64,000 nucleotides of DNA from a bacterium. Lineage in GTDB: Bacteria > UBP6 > JAFGXH01. Location: assembly GCA_027064085.1 (NCBI GenBank), contig JAMOQH010000179.1, positions 1 to 64,000 on the forward strand, written 5' to 3'. Both the position numbers and the translations under genes were made by a program. Positions 21,974 through 30,725 of this stretch are shown piece by piece; within the stretch, counting starts at the first letter, position 1; each line of letters opens with the position of its first letter. Below the pieces are notes generated by a model. It did not search any database, was not told the origin of the DNA, and saw only the letters and a program-made list of their open reading frames with translations.

Positions 21974-22002
21974 TTGACAGAAATTTCATTAGGTGTTAAA
22001 TT
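21974..22002 (+). promoter_or_regulatory. Sigma70-type promoter for the PqqD-like gene
   Basis: TTGACA - 17 bp - TAAATT. Confidence 0.6.
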
Positions 22003-22028: not shown

Positions 22029-22289
22029 ATGATAAAATTAAACGATAAAGTTACATATAGAAAAATAGAAGATAGTATTTTAATTATTACTCCATGGGAT
22101 AATGCAATGCATACCCTTGAGGATATAGGAAAACTAATTTTTGAGGCGTTAATTGATGCCAAAGAAAAAGGTGATATTTTACAAGAAATATTAGATAATT
22201 ATGATGTAGAATTAGTAGAAGCTAAAAATGATTTAGAGCAATTTATTGATTCTTTAATTGAAAAAGAAATTTTTATAGAGGAGGAATAA
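22029..22289 (+). CDS. PqqD-like / RiPP recognition element (RRE) protein
   Basis: MIKLNDKVTYRKIEDSILIITPWDNAMHTLEDIGKLIFEAL..., PqqD-like pattern of early beta strands followed by G-x-LIFEAL and a C-terminal helix. Confidence 0.7.
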   Translation: MIKLNDKVTYRKIEDSILIITPWDNAMHTLEDIGKLIFEALIDAKEKGDILQEILDNYDVELVEAKNDLEQFIDSLIEKEIFIEEE

Positions 22290-25200
22290 TGAATAAGTTG
22301 TTTATTTATTTTACAACACTTATTGCATTTACATTTGTCATTACTAGTTGTAGTAGTGGAAGTAGTAATAGTTGTAAAACTAGCGAAGATTGTGATAATG
22401 GTGAAGTTTGTGTTAATGAAGTTTGTAAAACGGATGAAACTAAAAGTAGTTTAAGTCTTATTGCTATTAATGATGGTGATTTTATTGATGGATATCGTTA
22501 TGATGAAAATGGTACTCTTGATGGAGTACAATTAACTATAAACGCAAAAGCTACTAATTTTAAAGATGGTACAGACATAAGTCTAGAAATTGCTACTAAT
22601 CCTAATAGTAAAGTTACAGAGAAGTTAAAAGTTTTAGATGATGGGACTAGCATAGTTAGTTTTAGTGATTTCACTTTAAAAAATGGACAAAATATGCTTT
22701 TGTTATCAGGTAAAGATAAATATGGCGAGTCTATTAATACAACAGTAACTATAACAGCTCAAGAACTTACTCTTGTAATAACTTCTCCAATAGAAGGAGA
22801 AACTCTTAAAGCTGCTGATGATCAAAATACTGAAGAATATTATATCCAAAAAGATGTTAAAGTAGATGTTAAGGGTTTAGTATCTGAAGATAATTTATTT
22901 GCGAAATTAGTTTTATTTGACGGAGAGCAAGCAAAATTTTCTTATGTGGCAGAGCCTAAAGATGGTGTCGCAGTATTCGAAAATGTTGATTTTAGAGCTG
23001 GAAATTGGAAACTAGTTGCTTCTATTGATACAAGAGCCAATTCTACAGTTAGCTCTACACCTGTTAATGTTATAGCAGAATCAACAGGCGATTGTGTAGT
23101 TAAAGTCTTTCCTGAAAATGGAACAGTGATAAATCAAAAATATTTAAAGGAACATAATATTGGTATTGATAATAAAATTCCCTTGAAAGTTGAATCAAAT
23201 TGCCCAGCTAATTTTAAAGTTAAATTTACTGTAAATAGTACTGAAATATACAATGGTATTCTTGTTCTTGATGGAGATAAAACTGTTGCAGAAACTTCAT
23301 TTGCTTTTCCTGAAGATATTGGTGGAGTAGGCTCTGAAGTAAGAGTAGACGTATCTGAAAATTTTGATGATACAAATGCTGATGGTGGTTTTATTGTTGC
23401 TACATATAATGTTGACACAATAGCACCTAACTTTGTTGAGGTAACAGAGCCTCTAGAAGATTCAATACTAAATACAGACACTGATTTAGATGGAGATGCA
23501 ACAAATGGTATTCAATTTTGGGTAAAAGGTAAAGTTGAAGGTTCTACTTCTAGTTTAAAAGTTTATATAGATGATTTAGAAAACCCTATTGGAGGAGTTC
23601 AAACTTATGATAATGCAATAGCACAAGATGGTACTTTTGATACTTCATTATTAGATAATAATCAATATACTAGTATTTCTGTTGGTGGAGAAAGAACAAT
23701 TATATTTGAAGCGGTTGATGAACATGGAAATAAATCTACTTTTAACAGAAAAGTAAATGTAATGTTGTCTAACCCTAATGAATTGTCATTAAGTTTTAGT
23801 GATAATAAATTGTTAAATCCAGATAATAAAATTAATATTAACACAGCTACAATTGGTGTTTTATTAAATAGGTTCTTAGAGGGTGTTTTGATTCTAAATG
23901 TAACCCTTAACGGAAATAGTTATGATTATACAAATAGCGTTAATATTGATGACCCTACAAATTTATTGGGATATTTTTCTTTTACTGATTTGAGTGACGG
24001 TAGGTATATAATAACTCCTAAATTCAAGGATACCAATAACTTTAACTACACCGGTGTTAATGGATATTTAAATGTTAAAACAGCTATACCGGTTTTTAGT
24101 AATCTAAATATTGTTCAAGATACTGACAATAATAATATTTTAAACATGGCAAAAGATGCAAATGCAACTTTAGAAGGGTTTCAAACTGATATTACTATAG
24201 ATACTGAAAATCTTTATTTAGATGATTTAGATTGCGAAAATGAATCAGATAGGGTGAAAGCAACTTTATATAAAATAAGTGATAATGGTGATGTTTTAAG
24301 TGAATCAGCTAAAGTTGCTTGTGATGGTAAAGTGAAATTTACTAATGTTACATTACCTGAGGGTAATTATAAATTATTTATAAAAGTAACTGATGGTTTT
24401 GGTAATATTGGAACTTTTGAAACTAGTGCTTTAACAGTAGATATAACACCTCCGGATTTAAATACTTTATTTTTAACTGCAACAACAAATTCTAATGAAA
24501 AGCCTGTTACAACAGACAGCTTGTTTTTATCTATAGATGATAAGGATAGTAATACCACAGGATTACAAAGTAATTTTAAGGCTTATTCTTTAGATTCTGT
24601 TTCAATTGAACTTAAATTTGATTCAATCGACCAAACTGAAGATGTTGTTAATGGAGTAGTTGATTTTGGCGACTTAACATTACAGAATGGTGCAACTAGC
24701 ATTGAATTAATCGCAACAGATAATGTAGGTAATATAACAAACAAAGAAATAACCAATGTAGTTGTAGATACACTAGTGCCTTCTTTGGAACTTTCTATGT
24801 CAAAAACAACTATAGATGATTCAGATGATGAAGATGATACAAGAGCAGGAATTCAATTTACGGTAACTATTAATAATATGCAAAATATTGAAGATGGACA
24901 AGTTATTTATATTCAAAAAAGTGTAGATGATGGTAATGGTAATATTACATGGAATAATGTAGCTCAAGTTCTTAAAGATGCGAATGATAGCAAAAATATT
25001 GTGATTACTCTTCCTCTTGGAACATATAAACTAAGAGCAATGGCTAGTGATGTTAATAACCAGGAAGGTTATTCTGCTGAAATTGATATGGATGTAACAT
25101 CTTCTAATTGTGCTATTGTTTCTGTGAAAAAAGGAAATTCTGAATTAGTTGCAGGTACAAACTTTTTTAATGCTAGCGATGTTGATGTAAATGGTAATGT

Positions 25201-27427
25201 TTCATTAATAATAACTTATACTGCATCATGTAATGTTTTAGGTGGAACAACTATTATAGCTAAGAAAAATGGTGCAAATGCAGCAAGTACTAATATAGAT
25301 ACAAGTTTAAGTTCAACTTTGGATATTCCTTTTACTGATGGCGAAAATATTTCATTATTATTTGAAATTAATTCCACTCCTGTTGGTTCATCTTCTTTTA
25401 CTATTAAGGTTGATACTAGTGCTCCTGCAATATCAAGAGTATTTCCAACATTATCAAGTATTACTTATGTTAATGCTAATAATACATTAATTGGAACAAC
25501 TGGTAATGAGGATAAAATTGGCGATTTAAATGATGCTTTACAAAATGCACAATTATCATTAACTGTAAAGGTTGAAGGGGCAAAAAATGGTTCAATTGAG
25601 ATGATTGCAAATGATGGAAGTAATGATGTGTCTATAGTAACCAAAAATAATATTGCCTCTAATGATGAAAATATTGTTTTAAGTGGAACAATTGCTGATA
25701 ATAAAACTCACGATTTAAAATTTAAGGTTACAGATGAAGCTGGTAATACAGTAACCACTTTATTATATAATGCAGTTGTTGATGTTACCAATCCTGGTAA
25801 TTTAGCAACTTTAGATTATGATGGAATGAGCAATACCGAAAGAAGAAAAGCTGAACTTAATTTAACATGGAATCAATCATCTACTGATGATGTGAGTAAA
25901 TATGTTATTAAATATTCAACAAGTTTGTTTGATGATACTAGTTTTGAAAATCTTGATGGAACAAATAATCAGGAAATTGTAATTAATTCACCTGATTTAA
26001 CAACTGCAAATTATCAAAAACTAATAACCTCATTAATTTTTCAAAAGAACTATACTTTTGGGGTAAGAGCTTATGATGAAGTTGGAAATGCAAGTAATAT
26101 TTTGATTCGTTCTACTGGAACTGATTTGAATTTATTATCAAAAACTTTAGATACATCAAGTTTTGATACTAATGATAGTATTTATAAGATAAAAGATGTT
26201 GGTGATATTAATGATGATGGATATAATGATGTTGTTGTTACTCAATATGTTGCATCGGGTTGGGACGGTGTAATTTATATTTTTTATGGAACTGGAGATC
26301 CCGATACTATTGTATCTCCACAGATTATCGAAGGAGTTGATGGAAGTTATGAAGGGCTTGGTTCAAGTATTACTTCTGGAGATTTTAATGGAGATGGTAA
26401 AACCGATTTGCTTGTAGGTTCAATATGGGCGGATTATTATTATGATTCAGGAAAATATTGTTATGGAGGTGGAGTATATGTTTTCTATAATCAGGGAAAT
26501 GGTACTCAGATTGATGCTTCAGATAAAACGTTAATAACAAACTCCAATCTTCATCCTGTTGCTAAATTAAGAGAGGAGGGGTCATATTACTATGGAAAAC
26601 TTGGAAAGTCACTTTCAGCATTAGGCAAATTAAATGGAAGTGTTTATGATAGTTTTGTTTTAGGACAAAGTTTTTCATCAGATGGTGGACGAGCTTTTAT
26701 AATAGAAGGTAGAGCTGGAAAGCCTTCATCAATAGATTTAGCTTCAGCATCTAATGTTGTGGAATTATCACATGATTTTGGAGTTAATAGTTATTTTGGA
26801 AACTCTGTTACAACTTTAGGTGATTTGAATAATGACAATATTGTTGATGTTGCTGTAAGTGACCCTGTAAATAAAAAAGTTGCTATTTATTATCTTGATA
26901 ACAACATTTATAGTAACACTACACTTATTGCAAAAGCTGATAATACGGGAGATGCAACAATTTTAGAAGCTACTGGAGAAAACTATGGTAGTGAAATTAT
27001 TGGCGACATTGATTTAAATAATGATGGTTATAAGGATTTGGTCGTTTCTGGATTAACTACAGGTTTGTTCTTATATTATGGTACAAATACCGGATTAGCT
27101 TCTGATTCAACATTTTCAAAGATAAATATACCCTCAGGAGGGATTGAAAATCATCCTAGTTGGAATAATAATTTCTCTGTTGCAGATTTAGATAATGATA
27201 ATAAGGACGATATAATTGTTGGAGAAAATAAGAAATTAAATATTTACCTAAGTAGAGTTAATAACTTTACGAATACATCAACACCTGATACCATCTTGGG
27301 TGAGAGTGATTTTGCTGTGGCTATTACAGGTACATTAAAAGCTTCTTCTTTTGATGTAAATGATGATGGGCTTAAAGATTTGGTTATTTGTGATATGGGT
27401 AGTAAGAATTGTTTTATTAAATATTAG
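22289..27427 (+). CDS. Giant lipoprotein with bacterial Ig-like repeats and C-terminal FG-GAP (integrin-alpha-like) propeller
   Basis: Lipobox (FVITSCSSG); repeated Ig-like modules; DINDDGYNDVVV, DFNGDGKTDLLV, DLNNDNIVDVAV, DLNNDGYKDLVV. Confidence 0.85.
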   Translation: MNKLFIYFTTLIAFTFVITSCSSGSSNSCKTSEDCDNGEVCVNEVCKTDETKSSLSLIAINDGDFIDGYRYDENGTLDGVQLTINAKATNFKDGTDISLEIATNPNSKVTEKLKVLDDGTSIVSFSDFTLKNGQNMLLLSGKDKYGESINTTVTITAQELTLVITSPIEGETLKAADDQNTEEYYIQKDVKVDVKGLVSEDNLFAKLVLFDGEQAKFSYVAEPKDGVAVFENVDFRAGNWKLVASIDTRANSTVSSTPVNVIAESTGDCVVKVFPENGTVINQKYLKEHNIGIDNKIPLKVESNCPANFKVKFTVNSTEIYNGILVLDGDKTVAETSFAFPEDIGGVGSEVRVDVSENFDDTNADGGFIVATYNVDTIAPNFVEVTEPLEDSILNTDTDLDGDATNGIQFWVKGKVEGSTSSLKVYIDDLENPIGGVQTYDNAIAQDGTFDTSLLDNNQYTSISVGGERTIIFEAVDEHGNKSTFNRKVNVMLSNPNELSLSFSDNKLLNPDNKININTATIGVLLNRFLEGVLILNVTLNGNSYDYTNSVNIDDPTNLLGYFSFTDLSDGRYIITPKFKDTNNFNYTGVNGYLNVKTAIPVFSNLNIVQDTDNNNILNMAKDANATLEGFQTDITIDTENLYLDDLDCENESDRVKATLYKISDNGDVLSESAKVACDGKVKFTNVTLPEGNYKLFIKVTDGFGNIGTFETSALTVDITPPDLNTLFLTATTNSNEKPVTTDSLFLSIDDKDSNTTGLQSNFKAYSLDSVSIELKFDSIDQTEDVVNGVVDFGDLTLQNGATSIELIATDNVGNITNKEITNVVVDTLVPSLELSMSKTTIDDSDDEDDTRAGIQFTVTINNMQNIEDGQVIYIQKSVDDGNGNITWNNVAQVLKDANDSKNIVITLPLGTYKLRAMASDVNNQEGYSAEIDMDVTSSNCAIVSVKKGNSELVAGTNFFNASDVDVNGNVSLIITYTASCNVLGGTTIIAKKNGANAASTNIDTSLSSTLDIPFTDGENISLLFEINSTPVGSSSFTIKVDTSAPAISRVFPTLSSITYVNANNTLIGTTGNEDKIGDLNDALQNAQLSLTVKVEGAKNGSIEMIANDGSNDVSIVTKNNIASNDENIVLSGTIADNKTHDLKFKVTDEAGNTVTTLLYNAVVDVTNPGNLATLDYDGMSNTERRKAELNLTWNQSSTDDVSKYVIKYSTSLFDDTSFENLDGTNNQEIVINSPDLTTANYQKLITSLIFQKNYTFGVRAYDEVGNASNILIRSTGTDLNLLSKTLDTSSFDTNDSIYKIKDVGDINDDGYNDVVVTQYVASGWDGVIYIFYGTGDPDTIVSPQIIEGVDGSYEGLGSSITSGDFNGDGKTDLLVGSIWADYYYDSGKYCYGGGVYVFYNQGNGTQIDASDKTLITNSNLHPVAKLREEGSYYYGKLGKSLSALGKLNGSVYDSFVLGQSFSSDGGRAFIIEGRAGKPSSIDLASASNVVELSHDFGVNSYFGNSVTTLGDLNNDNIVDVAVSDPVNKKVAIYYLDNNIYSNTTLIAKADNTGDATILEATGENYGSEIIGDIDLNNDGYKDLVVSGLTTGLFLYYGTNTGLASDSTFSKINIPSGGIENHPSWNNNFSVADLDNDNKDDIIVGENKKLNIYLSRVNNFTNTSTPDTILGESDFAVAITGTLKASSFDVNDDGLKDLVICDMGSKNCFIKY

Positions 27428-27440
27428 TAAGGAGATGAAA

Positions 27441-27560
27441 ATGAAAAAAAAGTATATAAAACCAGTTTTAGAAACAGAAGAGATACTTGAAAGAGTTGTT
27501 TTGGGTTGTTCATTACAAGAAGGAGCTTGTGACCCTAAAGCTGGTACTTCAACAAGTTAA
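27441..27560 (+). CDS. Putative RiPP precursor peptide (39 aa)
   Basis: SD AAGGAG at 27429-27434; MKKKYIKPVLETEEILERVVLGCSLQEGACDPKAGTSTS; leader-like KKYxKPxLE start and short Cys/Gly/Ser/Thr-rich tail. Confidence 0.65.
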   Translation: MKKKYIKPVLETEEILERVVLGCSLQEGACDPKAGTSTS

Positions 27561-27569
27561 AAGATGAAT

Positions 27570-28538
27570 TTAAATAAACCTCGCTAATTCTATTAAAAAA
27601 CTCCCTTTATCATTAATTGTTATTTTATTTAAAGAGTTATACAAAGAATGTTTTTTATTATAATGATAAACTGTAACAACATCTATAAAATATTCTGAAT
27701 TCATATCAAGTTTTTTATTAAATACAGAAAGTTTATCAAATGAGGTTAATATTTTAATCGTGTTTTTTAAAGTTTTTATTAACTTCATAAATGTATATGT
27801 ATCAAGCATTTTGTTTGAAATATCTTCAAATAGTAATGTCAAATATATTAATGCAATCTTTTCTATGGGCTTTAACAATACATAAGGATTTTTATTAATA
27901 AGAAAAGTATTTTCAAATCCTTTAATTAGATAATGATATCTAGGGAATTTATAGTTTTTTTGATAATAATTATTCCACATATTCCAATAGTAAAATATTT
28001 CATTTTGAGTTAATTTATAATTTTCTTTAAAAAATTCTATTAAATTTATATGATTATAATAATATCCTTCATAATCGGATAAATCATCTCTTGGAGTATA
28101 ATTATAAAAATCAAAACTAATATTTTTAGTTTGTTCAAAAAAATTATTTGTAGTAATGGGAGTTTCTCCGCTATCAGTAATAGAACAATCATAAAAATTT
28201 ATAGAAATAATATAAATATCATTTATTCTACCTAGAATTCTGTATGGGAATATATTACAAATATCAGGTTTCGCATATTTGCCATTCTCAATCTCTATAT
28301 GGCACTTTCCATCATTTCTTAATTGAGGGCATACTCCAAAATTTAGAATACTATGTTTTTCTTTAAAGCAACTACTATATTCTGATTTATATTTCTTATG
28401 AAGAAGGATTTTATCGTTTCTTGTACAACAATTTATTAAACAATTTTTACATGAATAATAGAAAAAAGAATCAGGAAATAAAAATTTAAATTTTCTACCA
28501 TTATTCTCTATTATTTTAAGCTCTTCAAGTTTTTTCAT
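27570..28538 (-). CDS. YkgJ-like Cys-cluster protein (putative Fe-S or Zn)
   Basis: CKNCLINCC ... CPQLRNDGKCHIE ... KPDICNIFPYR. Confidence 0.7.
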   Translation of the reverse strand: MKKLEELKIIENNGRKFKFLFPDSFFYYSCKNCLINCCTRNDKILLHKKYKSEYSSCFKEKHSILNFGVCPQLRNDGKCHIEIENGKYAKPDICNIFPYRILGRINDIYIISINFYDCSITDSGETPITTNNFFEQTKNISFDFYNYTPRDDLSDYEGYYYNHINLIEFFKENYKLTQNEIFYYWNMWNNYYQKNYKFPRYHYLIKGFENTFLINKNPYVLLKPIEKIALIYLTLLFEDISNKMLDTYTFMKLIKTLKNTIKILTSFDKLSVFNKKLDMNSEYFIDVVTVYHYNKKHSLYNSLNKITINDKGSFLIELARFI

Positions 28539-29335
28539 AATATTATATCCTTAAGTGGTTCGTTTAGATTAAAGCTTAATTCATCTACCGTAACATTATT
28601 ATAGATTTGATTGAGTATATTTAATATCAAATTATAAGTATATTTATCTGTATTATTATATCCAAAGATTAATTTTAGGATTTCTTGATAAAATTTTTTT
28701 TTATCAATATTTTTTAAATAATAATTTGATTTTCTTTTTAAGATAAAAATTTTTTTTAATTCTTTTTTAGGTAAAAAGTTTACAATATGTTTGGGATTAT
28801 AATTAAAAGGAGTAGGATAAATATAAAATTTTTCATTTAATTTTCTTATAAGGGTAATTTCATCATGAAGGATGGTACAGCCTTCAGATTTTAGTTTTTT
28901 AGCAAATGTTGATTTACCACTACCACTAATTCCACTTCCTACAATTCCATAATTATCATTTATAATAGAAGATGAATGTAGTAGTAATGCATTAAATTTA
29001 GGTAAAAAATTCAATAATATTGTTTTTATAATTAAAAAAAAATTATTTGAATCTTTATGTATTAAAAAATTTGCAGTATTTTCAATATAATTAATTTCAC
29101 CATGAATATCCCATTTTTTAATTATCATAATGTCATCATTTATATTGGTAATGAAATAATCCCATTTGCCATTAATAAGCTCGTAATCATCTATTTTTAT
29201 AAGTTTAACAAAAATATCATATTCTGAATTTTCTATAATAAAATCTTTTAATATTTGTTTCATTTTGTTATTAAATAATTGATAGTCAATTTCAAATGAT
29301 ATAATTATATTAGCAATAGATACCTGAAAACTCAT
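28535..29335 (-). CDS. HprK-like (HPr kinase-related) P-loop kinase
   Basis: NALLLHSSSI...GIVGSGISGSGKSTFAKKLKSEGCTILHDEITLI. Confidence 0.8.
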   Translation of the reverse strand: MSFQVSIANIIISFEIDYQLFNNKMKQILKDFIIENSEYDIFVKLIKIDDYELINGKWDYFITNINDDIMIIKKWDIHGEINYIENTANFLIHKDSNNFFLIIKTILLNFLPKFNALLLHSSSIINDNYGIVGSGISGSGKSTFAKKLKSEGCTILHDEITLIRKLNEKFYIYPTPFNYNPKHIVNFLPKKELKKIFILKRKSNYYLKNIDKKKFYQEILKLIFGYNNTDKYTYNLILNILNQIYNNVTVDELSFNLNEPLKDIIL

Positions 29336-29763
29336 AATTTTTTTTTCCTTTTGATTATCATTTTTATAATAGGGTGAAATGGCAGTATGTAATAATAGTA
29401 TATGTTTAATATGTGTGAATTAATTATTAAATTAAATTTATTTTTCTGTATTTTAAATAAAACACCAAAATAGTTATTTTCATTTATTTCATAAAAATCA
29501 TTATTTACATTATTGTCACCTTTTGTTATTATTTTATTATTTTTAATTTTGATAATTCTGTGTAGTATAAAATCATTCTTTTTAAAAAGAATAATATCCC
29601 CTTGTTTTAATTTATTAATATTTTTATATTTTATAAATACTTTATCACCCTTAGATATTAGTGGCCACATTGAACCACCGGTAGTTACATCAGTAATAAA
29701 TATATCTCCTTTTTTAAGAGATATTTTTAGTAATTCCTGTTTTATCTTATTTTTTTTAATGAT
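29332..29763 (-). CDS. S26-type (SipW/Sec11-like) peptidase; start extended upstream of the tracked ATG
   Basis: Frame continues upstream: KGDIFITDVTTGGSMWPLISKGDKV...GDIILFKKNDFILHRI...ITKGDNN; candidate ATC/ATT start at 29758-29763 after SD AAGAGG. Confidence 0.75.
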   Translation of the reverse strand: MIKKNKIKQELLKISLKKGDIFITDVTTGGSMWPLISKGDKVFIKYKNINKLKQGDIILFKKNDFILHRIIKIKNNKIITKGDNNVNNDFYEINENNYFGVLFKIQKNKFNLIINSHILNIYYYYILPFHPIIKMIIKRKKKL

Positions 29764-30725
29764 TTTGTTACCTCTTTAATGCCATTATTCTTAATTTTTA
29801 TAAATTTATCATTTAAAAACCTTTTGTAGTCATTTAAGTTGTCAAATGTATAGTAAAATAAAAAAATCTGATTAATTCTAAAATTATTAGTCATTATCAT
29901 ATTTTTTAAAATTAATTTTTCGTAAGTTTTCAAATTGATTAAATTTATGGGTACTTTCTTTAAATCAAGTTCATTTATTAATATATAAAATATTAAATAA
30001 CTAATTTTTTTTATTCTGAAAAGGTTTATCATTTTTAGGAGATAATTCCAATTAATATCCTCTTTTTTAATAATTAAATATAAATCTAGAAATTTTTTTT
30101 CTACATTGATAAAATAGTCATTGGATATCTGTATTATTAAAGCAATAAGCTGATGCTCGATACAGTTTTTTTCAAAAATAACAGAGTAATCAATATTAAA
30201 TTTTGCTTTTTGAATAAAGGCTATATGTAAGTCTAAACTAAGTTCATGTCCTTTATATTCTATCAAAAACTCATTTTCATAAAAACGATACTTATTTTTA
30301 TAAAAGGATTTATCTTTTTTATATTTTGTTATTTTAAAATTATTATCTATTAAATCTTTTACTCTGCTTAGTTGTTTTTCATCTATTAATAAATCAATAT
30401 CAGATAGAAATCTTTGTGCAATATTTTCATATATGTTTTCGGCAGTAAATGCTCCTTTATAGAAAAGATAATTAAGTCTATTTTTATTTAAAAGTGTTTT
30501 TAGCTCCTTTTTAAAGTTTAAAAGTATGATGTTTTTATATAAATTTGCTCTATATTCTTGATTTATTTTTTTATTTTCTAATATTTTTTTATTTATGGGT
30601 AAAAAATAAAACGAAACGCTTAATTTTTTGAATTGATAATATAAATCAGTTGTATAACCAATCTCCTTTTTTAAAACTTTTTTAAAATTACTATTTAAAA
30701 TACCATTTTTTAAGTAAAATATAAT
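29742..30725 (-). CDS. NTP_transf_5-like nucleotidyltransferase; start extended upstream of the tracked TTG
   Basis: Frame open to stop at 30735-30737; encodes YKGAFTAENIYENIAQRFLSDIDLLIDEKQ...LIEYKGHELSLDLH; only ATA/ATT start candidates after SD AAGAGGAG. Confidence 0.75.
   Translation of the reverse strand: MIFYLKNGILNSNFKKVLKKEIGYTTDLYYQFKKLSVSFYFLPINKKILENKKINQEYRANLYKNIILLNFKKELKTLLNKNRLNYLFYKGAFTAENIYENIAQRFLSDIDLLIDEKQLSRVKDLIDNNFKITKYKKDKSFYKNKYRFYENEFLIEYKGHELSLDLHIAFIQKAKFNIDYSVIFEKNCIEHQLIALIIQISNDYFINVEKKFLDLYLIIKKEDINWNYLLKMINLFRIKKISYLIFYILINELDLKKVPINLINLKTYEKLILKNMIMTNNFRINQIFLFYYTFDNLNDYKRFLNDKFIKIKNNGIKEVTKSLKKIR

Follow-up and report, generated by a model that had tools for sequence, protein, structure and literature searches.

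We report that the 39-codon open reading frame (ORF) at positions 27441-27560 of the window (the whole 64,000-nucleotide stretch of bacterial DNA that was analysed) is, as judged by sequence comparison, a genuine gene for the conserved precursor of a short peptide, which is probably modified after translation. With a probability of roughly 0.7, it represents the precursor (A) gene of an undescribed RiPP family whose members would be guided by a RiPP recognition element (RRE), phosphorylated, possibly glycosylated, Cys-containing, cleaved by an S26-type peptidase and functionally linked with a propeller lipoprotein at the cell surface. The peptide gene with its FG-GAP neighbour and its set of enzymes fits no described peptide class, and this short ORF led to a candidate RiPP family that is coherent and spans a phylum of uncultured bacteria. 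The features of the locus are listed in Table 1.

Table 1 Features of the peptide locus (plus strand) and of the convergent gene row (minus strand) in the window
Feature	Position	Strand	Basis or remark
PqqD-like protein, discrete RRE	22030..22289	+	PF05402 E=1.6e-9, above cut-off
Giant lipoprotein, 1712 aa, with lipobox, Ig/fn3-like repeats and C-terminal FG-GAP propeller repeats	22289..27427	+	PF13517 E=2e-15, PF01839 E=1e-9
Shine-Dalgarno AAGGAG of the peptide gene	27429..27434	+	
Precursor peptide MKKKYIKPVLETEEILERVVLGCSLQEGACDPKAGTSTS	27441..27560	+	Homologues, profile, selection in relatives
Proposed leader, residues 1-22	27441..27506	+	YxKPxL motif at residues 5-10
Proposed core CSLQEGACDPKAGTSTS	27507..27557	+	Predicted boundary; variable region of the family begins here
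Cys-rich protein, CxxCxxxCC, YkgJ-like by eye only	27570..28538	-	Last gene of the convergent operon
HprK-related kinase, candidate precursor kinase	28535..29335	-	Fold, catalytic residues, co-occurrence
Solo S26-type signal peptidase-like protein, candidate leader peptidase	29332..29763	-	TIGR02228 61 bits vs cut-off 51.85
NTP_transf_5 nucleotidyltransferase	29742..30725	-	PF14907 E=2.7e-20, full frame; start ATT/ATA near 30725

The peptide gene starts 13 nt past the stop of the FG-GAP lipoprotein gene and is preceded by an ideal Shine-Dalgarno sequence at a spacing of 6 nt; in the latter, as in the 39-residue sequence, its coordinates and its position as an in-frame part of ORF 27360-27560, our analysis agrees with an earlier note on this DNA. 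Most of the first 27 codons of that mechanically predicted ORF lie within the FG-GAP gene, in another frame, and a gene caller taking the first ATG would therefore misplace the start of the peptide. In a six-frame translation of the 64-kb window, the peptide gene is the only ORF of 30-60 aa with YxKP close to its start.

Homologues were sought in 28 related draft MAGs, i.e. the genome of the window and 27 more of its phylum, and in an outside set of 358 genomes. With the window peptide alone as query, homologues (E about 1e-4) were detected in two genomes of the same family (G001 and G002), at the exactly equivalent place behind the orthologous FG-GAP gene. A profile built from 19 members gave matches in 14 of the 28 phylum genomes and in two of the 358 outside (Fisher 3e-16), and a 15th peptide-positive phylum genome (G025), in which the peptide lies between the FG-GAP and kinase genes, was found by eye. 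Hence, in 15/28 phylum genomes an orthologous FG-GAP gene is followed by a peptide homologue that has a Y-x-K-P leader and, in most cases, a tail with two Cys; conservation at homologous loci, the lack of which the earlier note had named as the result that would speak against it, is thus present. The order PqqD, FG-GAP, peptide is common to three families of the phylum. A kinase gene follows in one of them (f2), and in four genomes of another (f3) the FG-GAP gene is followed by a peptide with C-x6-C and then by genes for an S26-type and a radical SAM protein; the f2 and f3 type of FG-GAP protein is confined to genomes with the peptide and is encoded there at the peptide locus. Two further genomes (G015 and G020) have the PqqD and FG-GAP genes on contigs that end before the peptide position. 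No Pfam or NCBIfam model matched the peptides.

In G130, one of the two outside genomes and a member of another phylum, there were eight matches, and several of these are evident copies of a comparable Cys peptide with Y-x-K-P; those at L133, L141 and L145 read YxKPxIxSExxxEKTALxC...YEGC and one group adjoins a propeller-repeat protein. The second outside match is weak and lies in a 624-aa frame, and a match of the first search in G061 was rejected as lying inside a DNA methyltransferase-like gene. The f3 genomes also have a second Y-x-K-P precursor, with at least four Cys, behind the radical SAM gene (L027 6242-6409, L026 643-798, L025 5513-5677 and, on the minus strand, L107 1456-1605), and G024 and G013 have duplicated kinase-radical SAM pairs, each with its own Y-x-K-P peptide after or near it (L079 17989-20000, L108, L140).

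Within the peptides, Y5, K7 and P8 are invariant (19/19 members) and E13 is present in at least 90%; the motif of the window leader, YIKPVL at residues 5-10, agrees with the YxxPxL of lasso leaders. Five congeneric species share the first 24 residues, MKKNYQKPEIIEEIELDRKVVYAS (24/24 identical), although between any two of them 8 to 14 of 69 DNA positions are different, and their tails differ (ECVPTEDDPFKCD, ECVPTEDEPDKCD, NPDCDYTDPDAGC, EQYDPCKENPRNCGGSD and GPECNPGDPFDPCSGSGNN). For the leader codons of these congeners pS is 0.64-0.93 with zero amino-acid differences, and none of 5000 random placements of an equal number of differences kept the protein unchanged. Between G001 and G002 there are 12.2 synonymous changes per 26.7 sites and 10.8 non-synonymous changes per 96.3 sites. 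Read from these alignments, the leader is under purifying selection and the core is variable, which is the pattern of a leader and a core.

Ahead of the variable part most members have a small residue at -1 and a hydrophobic residue at -3, and the cleavage boundary is probably situated before Cys23 (between ERVVLG and CSLQ) and not before Gly22, so that the layout of the earlier note is kept with a shifted boundary. Apart from the window peptide, its C-x6-C spacing recurs in the main peptides of f3 and in one f2 species only; elsewhere the spacing ranges from x7 to x11. Most tails have two Cys, a single-Cys peptide being present in G024 and G013. The terminal TSTS is not conserved, yet all three members of the window's own family (f1) end in Ser, the site used by the Firmicutes kinases. 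No phosphorylatable residue occupies a constant core position across the family. If the core started as in Bradymonas, the window peptide and those of the five congeners would each have a Ser at position 3 of the core, which is the site used by BsfK; the phosphosite may be either this residue or the C-terminal Ser, both being compatible with the data.

Upstream, the PqqD gene is listed with a GTG start at 21993, and the ATG at 22030 is preceded by a Shine-Dalgarno-like AAGGTG; it occupies the equivalent position in the loci of the relatives. The start of the FG-GAP gene overlaps the PqqD stop, and PqqD, FG-GAP and peptide genes form one plus-strand row that looks like an operon. A second PqqD gene has an ATP-grasp and a PLP-decarboxylase-like gene as neighbours in the window's genome (L080 9832-12507, contig C10) and in G001 (L081 7325-10135); the N terminus of the PLP-decarboxylase-like protein (MKKKYERPVLIKNLNGFSNKFG in G001) resembles a YxxPxL leader fused to an enzyme.

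Ten bases past the peptide gene a convergent gene row ends (27570-30725, minus strand). Its last gene, which overlaps the kinase gene, encodes the Cys-rich protein, which matched nothing in Pfam, NCBIfam or PDB, had no homologue in the 98 further genomes searched and gave no usable fold model (pLDDT 35); being restricted to the window's genome, it is ruled out as a general part of the pathway. The fold model of the kinase matches HPr kinase/phosphatase with probability 1.00, its N-terminal 100 residues being unreliable, and the lasso-kinase residues H..G..G..GKS..D are present with conserved spacing: H120, GKS 140-142 and D158 are spaced as H148, GKS 168-170 and D186 of BsfK, and the last Asp is replaced by Glu. 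The frames of the S26-type protein and the nucleotidyltransferase run well upstream of the first ATG/GTG/TTG, past residues common to relatives, and both genes therefore probably start at ATT/ATC/ATA; for the S26-type protein the start must be upstream of ATG 29670 (ATT/ATC), since GGS-MWP with the putative catalytic Ser lies ahead of that codon. Their relatives use TTG and ATG starts. No dedicated exporter is present at the locus.

The enzymes of this row accompany the peptide across the phylum. Comparing 15 peptide-positive with 11 peptide-negative genomes (G015 and G020 were left out), the HprK-type kinase is present in 15/15 vs 0/11 (Fisher 1e-7), the NTP_transf_5 nucleotidyltransferase in 15/15 vs 1/11 (Fisher 2e-6) and the solo S26-type peptidase in 13/15 vs 0/11 (Fisher 1e-5), where the counts come from related MAGs and are not independent events, so that the p-values overstate independence. 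The co-occurrence includes unlinked copies: the nucleotidyltransferase-S26 pair is on another contig in G001 and G002, and the two genes are at separate places in G008. In one genus the components occur jointly in five positive species and are jointly missing from ten negative ones. The leader-core precursor layout suggested earlier is accordingly supported by the conserved leader, the variable Cys tail, the RRE (PqqD) gene in the operon and the co-occurring kinase-like protein, nucleotidyltransferase and solo S26-type peptidase.

A radical SAM enzyme accompanies part of the peptide family only, and thioether chemistry is therefore not general; with no radical SAM gene at the window locus, such an enzyme is ruled out as general maturase. 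In the window's genome the one related radical SAM protein (C100, E=1e-20) has an unrelated lipoprotein as its neighbour, and stand-alone relatives occur in other genomes as well.

For the chemistry, cleavage, export and biological role of the peptide we propose the following. The PqqD protein would bind the YxKPxL leader and pass the precursor to the HprK-type kinase, which would phosphorylate a Ser/Thr of the core, and the NTP_transf_5 protein could then add a nucleotidyl or glycosyl group onto the core phosphate. Since the S26-type protein is the sole peptidase in the set and the residues at -1 and -3 are small and hydrophobic, respectively, it is proposed to cut after the small residue ahead of the core, (V/L/A)-x-(A/G) followed by C/S. 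The two core Cys may form a disulfide, or another link in relatives with a radical SAM enzyme, and the mature peptide would act together with the giant FG-GAP surface lipoprotein made just before it in the same operon. More tentatively, and at somewhat less than even odds, we suggest a new RiPP class: a phosphorylated (perhaps glycosylated), Cys-linked peptide made in a fixed ratio with the giant FG-GAP surface lipoprotein and working on or in it, as a ligand or cofactor and not as a secreted antibiotic, with the tailoring enzymes of lasso peptides reused without the lasso. Because the candidate RiPP is tied to a giant surface lipoprotein across three families, a non-antibiotic role becomes testable.

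Other readings of the ORF were weighed. It is short and nested in a longer mechanical ORF, as a spurious frame in the intergenic stretch 3' of the FG-GAP gene might be, but its conserved position, Shine-Dalgarno sequence, synonymous bias and the specificity of the profile make this the least credible reading, and conservation together with synonymous bias rules it out. Hardly more probable is that the tail represents a short lipoprotein: VVLG followed by C resembles a lipobox, and f1 and f3 members have the hydrophobic -3 and small -1 residues and then Cys, but the head is charged and has no hydrophobic stretch that could serve as signal peptide before the lipobox Cys (best 12-residue hydropathy 1.18 vs 2.03 in the neighbouring real lipoprotein), and five species have Ser at this position. 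Instead of being processed into a product, the peptide could assist or regulate the FG-GAP lipoprotein as a small protein, a chaperone or pilot peptide. It always lies directly behind the FG-GAP gene, with a ribosome-binding site at or beside the FG-GAP stop that suggests coupled expression. The hypervariable tail behind a conserved head, the RRE, kinase, nucleotidyltransferase and peptidase that accompany it, and the second peptide copies sited away from the FG-GAP gene nevertheless make this an unlikely explanation.

The YxxPxL leader, PqqD, kinase and nucleotidyltransferase are all known from lasso clusters, and we also considered a class I-like lasso precursor with its ring closed between Cys1 and Asp9, the genes for cyclase and B2 protease lying at another site or having escaped detection; counting Cys23 as residue 1 puts Asp31 at position 9, where the f3 main peptides also have Asp/Glu. 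Against this, the B2 family PF13471 was unmatched (E<=0.01) in the window's genome, which is about 95% complete, and other genomes give only partial matches in frames of 310-660 aa, mostly about 470 aa. Moreover, the G001 and G002 cores contain no Asp/Glu at all and others none at 7-9, so that a ring-forming acid at core 7-9 is possible in the window peptide and absent in G001, G002 and the second f3 peptides, and no cyclase gene was seen in the window (no Asn-synthetase-like protein was recognised among its ORFs). With B2 absent from the genome and several cores unable to form the ring, we did not assign the peptide to the lasso class, a reading that we regard as improbable, and we retain that of a precursor of a separate RiPP family.

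Among known systems, the pairing of PqqD and radical SAM in the GeoRSP and SynChlorMet cassettes (TIGR04302/04303, TIGR04248-04251) is like that in part of the peptide family, and their models give several of the best, but weak, matches, all far under the curated cut-offs (e.g. 84.8 vs 400 bits, 22 vs 100). The HprK-related kinases A/B (TIGR04352, TIGR04355) belong to the same superfamily as the window kinase, which matches only part of the models, at 27.6 and 35.3 bits (cut-off 200 bits each). Leader binding and enzyme recruitment are functions of discrete PqqD proteins (RRE-Finder, PMC7470986). No description of a PqqD/FG-GAP/peptide operon was found in the literature searched, where FG-GAP together with PqqD, or with RiPP and precursor peptide, appears only in the Bradymonas lasso paper; next to the bsf cluster of Bradymonas lies an FG-GAP protein, which the authors of that paper left out of consideration (PMC10368454). 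There, in B. sediminis, the RRE accelerates phosphorylation of the YxxPxL-leader precursor by an HPr-kinase homologue (PMC10368454), and in Bacillus a kinase and a nucleotidyltransferase give the phosphoglycosylated lasso peptide pseudomycoidin (PMC8498205). The phosphorylated and phosphoglycosylated lasso systems (paeninodin, pseudomycoidin, bsf) share with the present one the YxxPxL leader at a similar distance from the core, the discrete PqqD-type RRE, and the HPr-kinase homologue with the same catalytic residues plus a nucleotidyltransferase. They differ in that here no B2 protease, cyclase or, at the locus, D transporter was seen, an S26-type peptidase replaces B2, the FG-GAP gene is inside the operon, and the cores, several of which lack an acid residue to form the ring, contain Cys. 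This comparison suggests that the kinase/nucleotidyltransferase pair of lasso peptides represents a general RRE-guided tailoring module, which also works without lasso formation.
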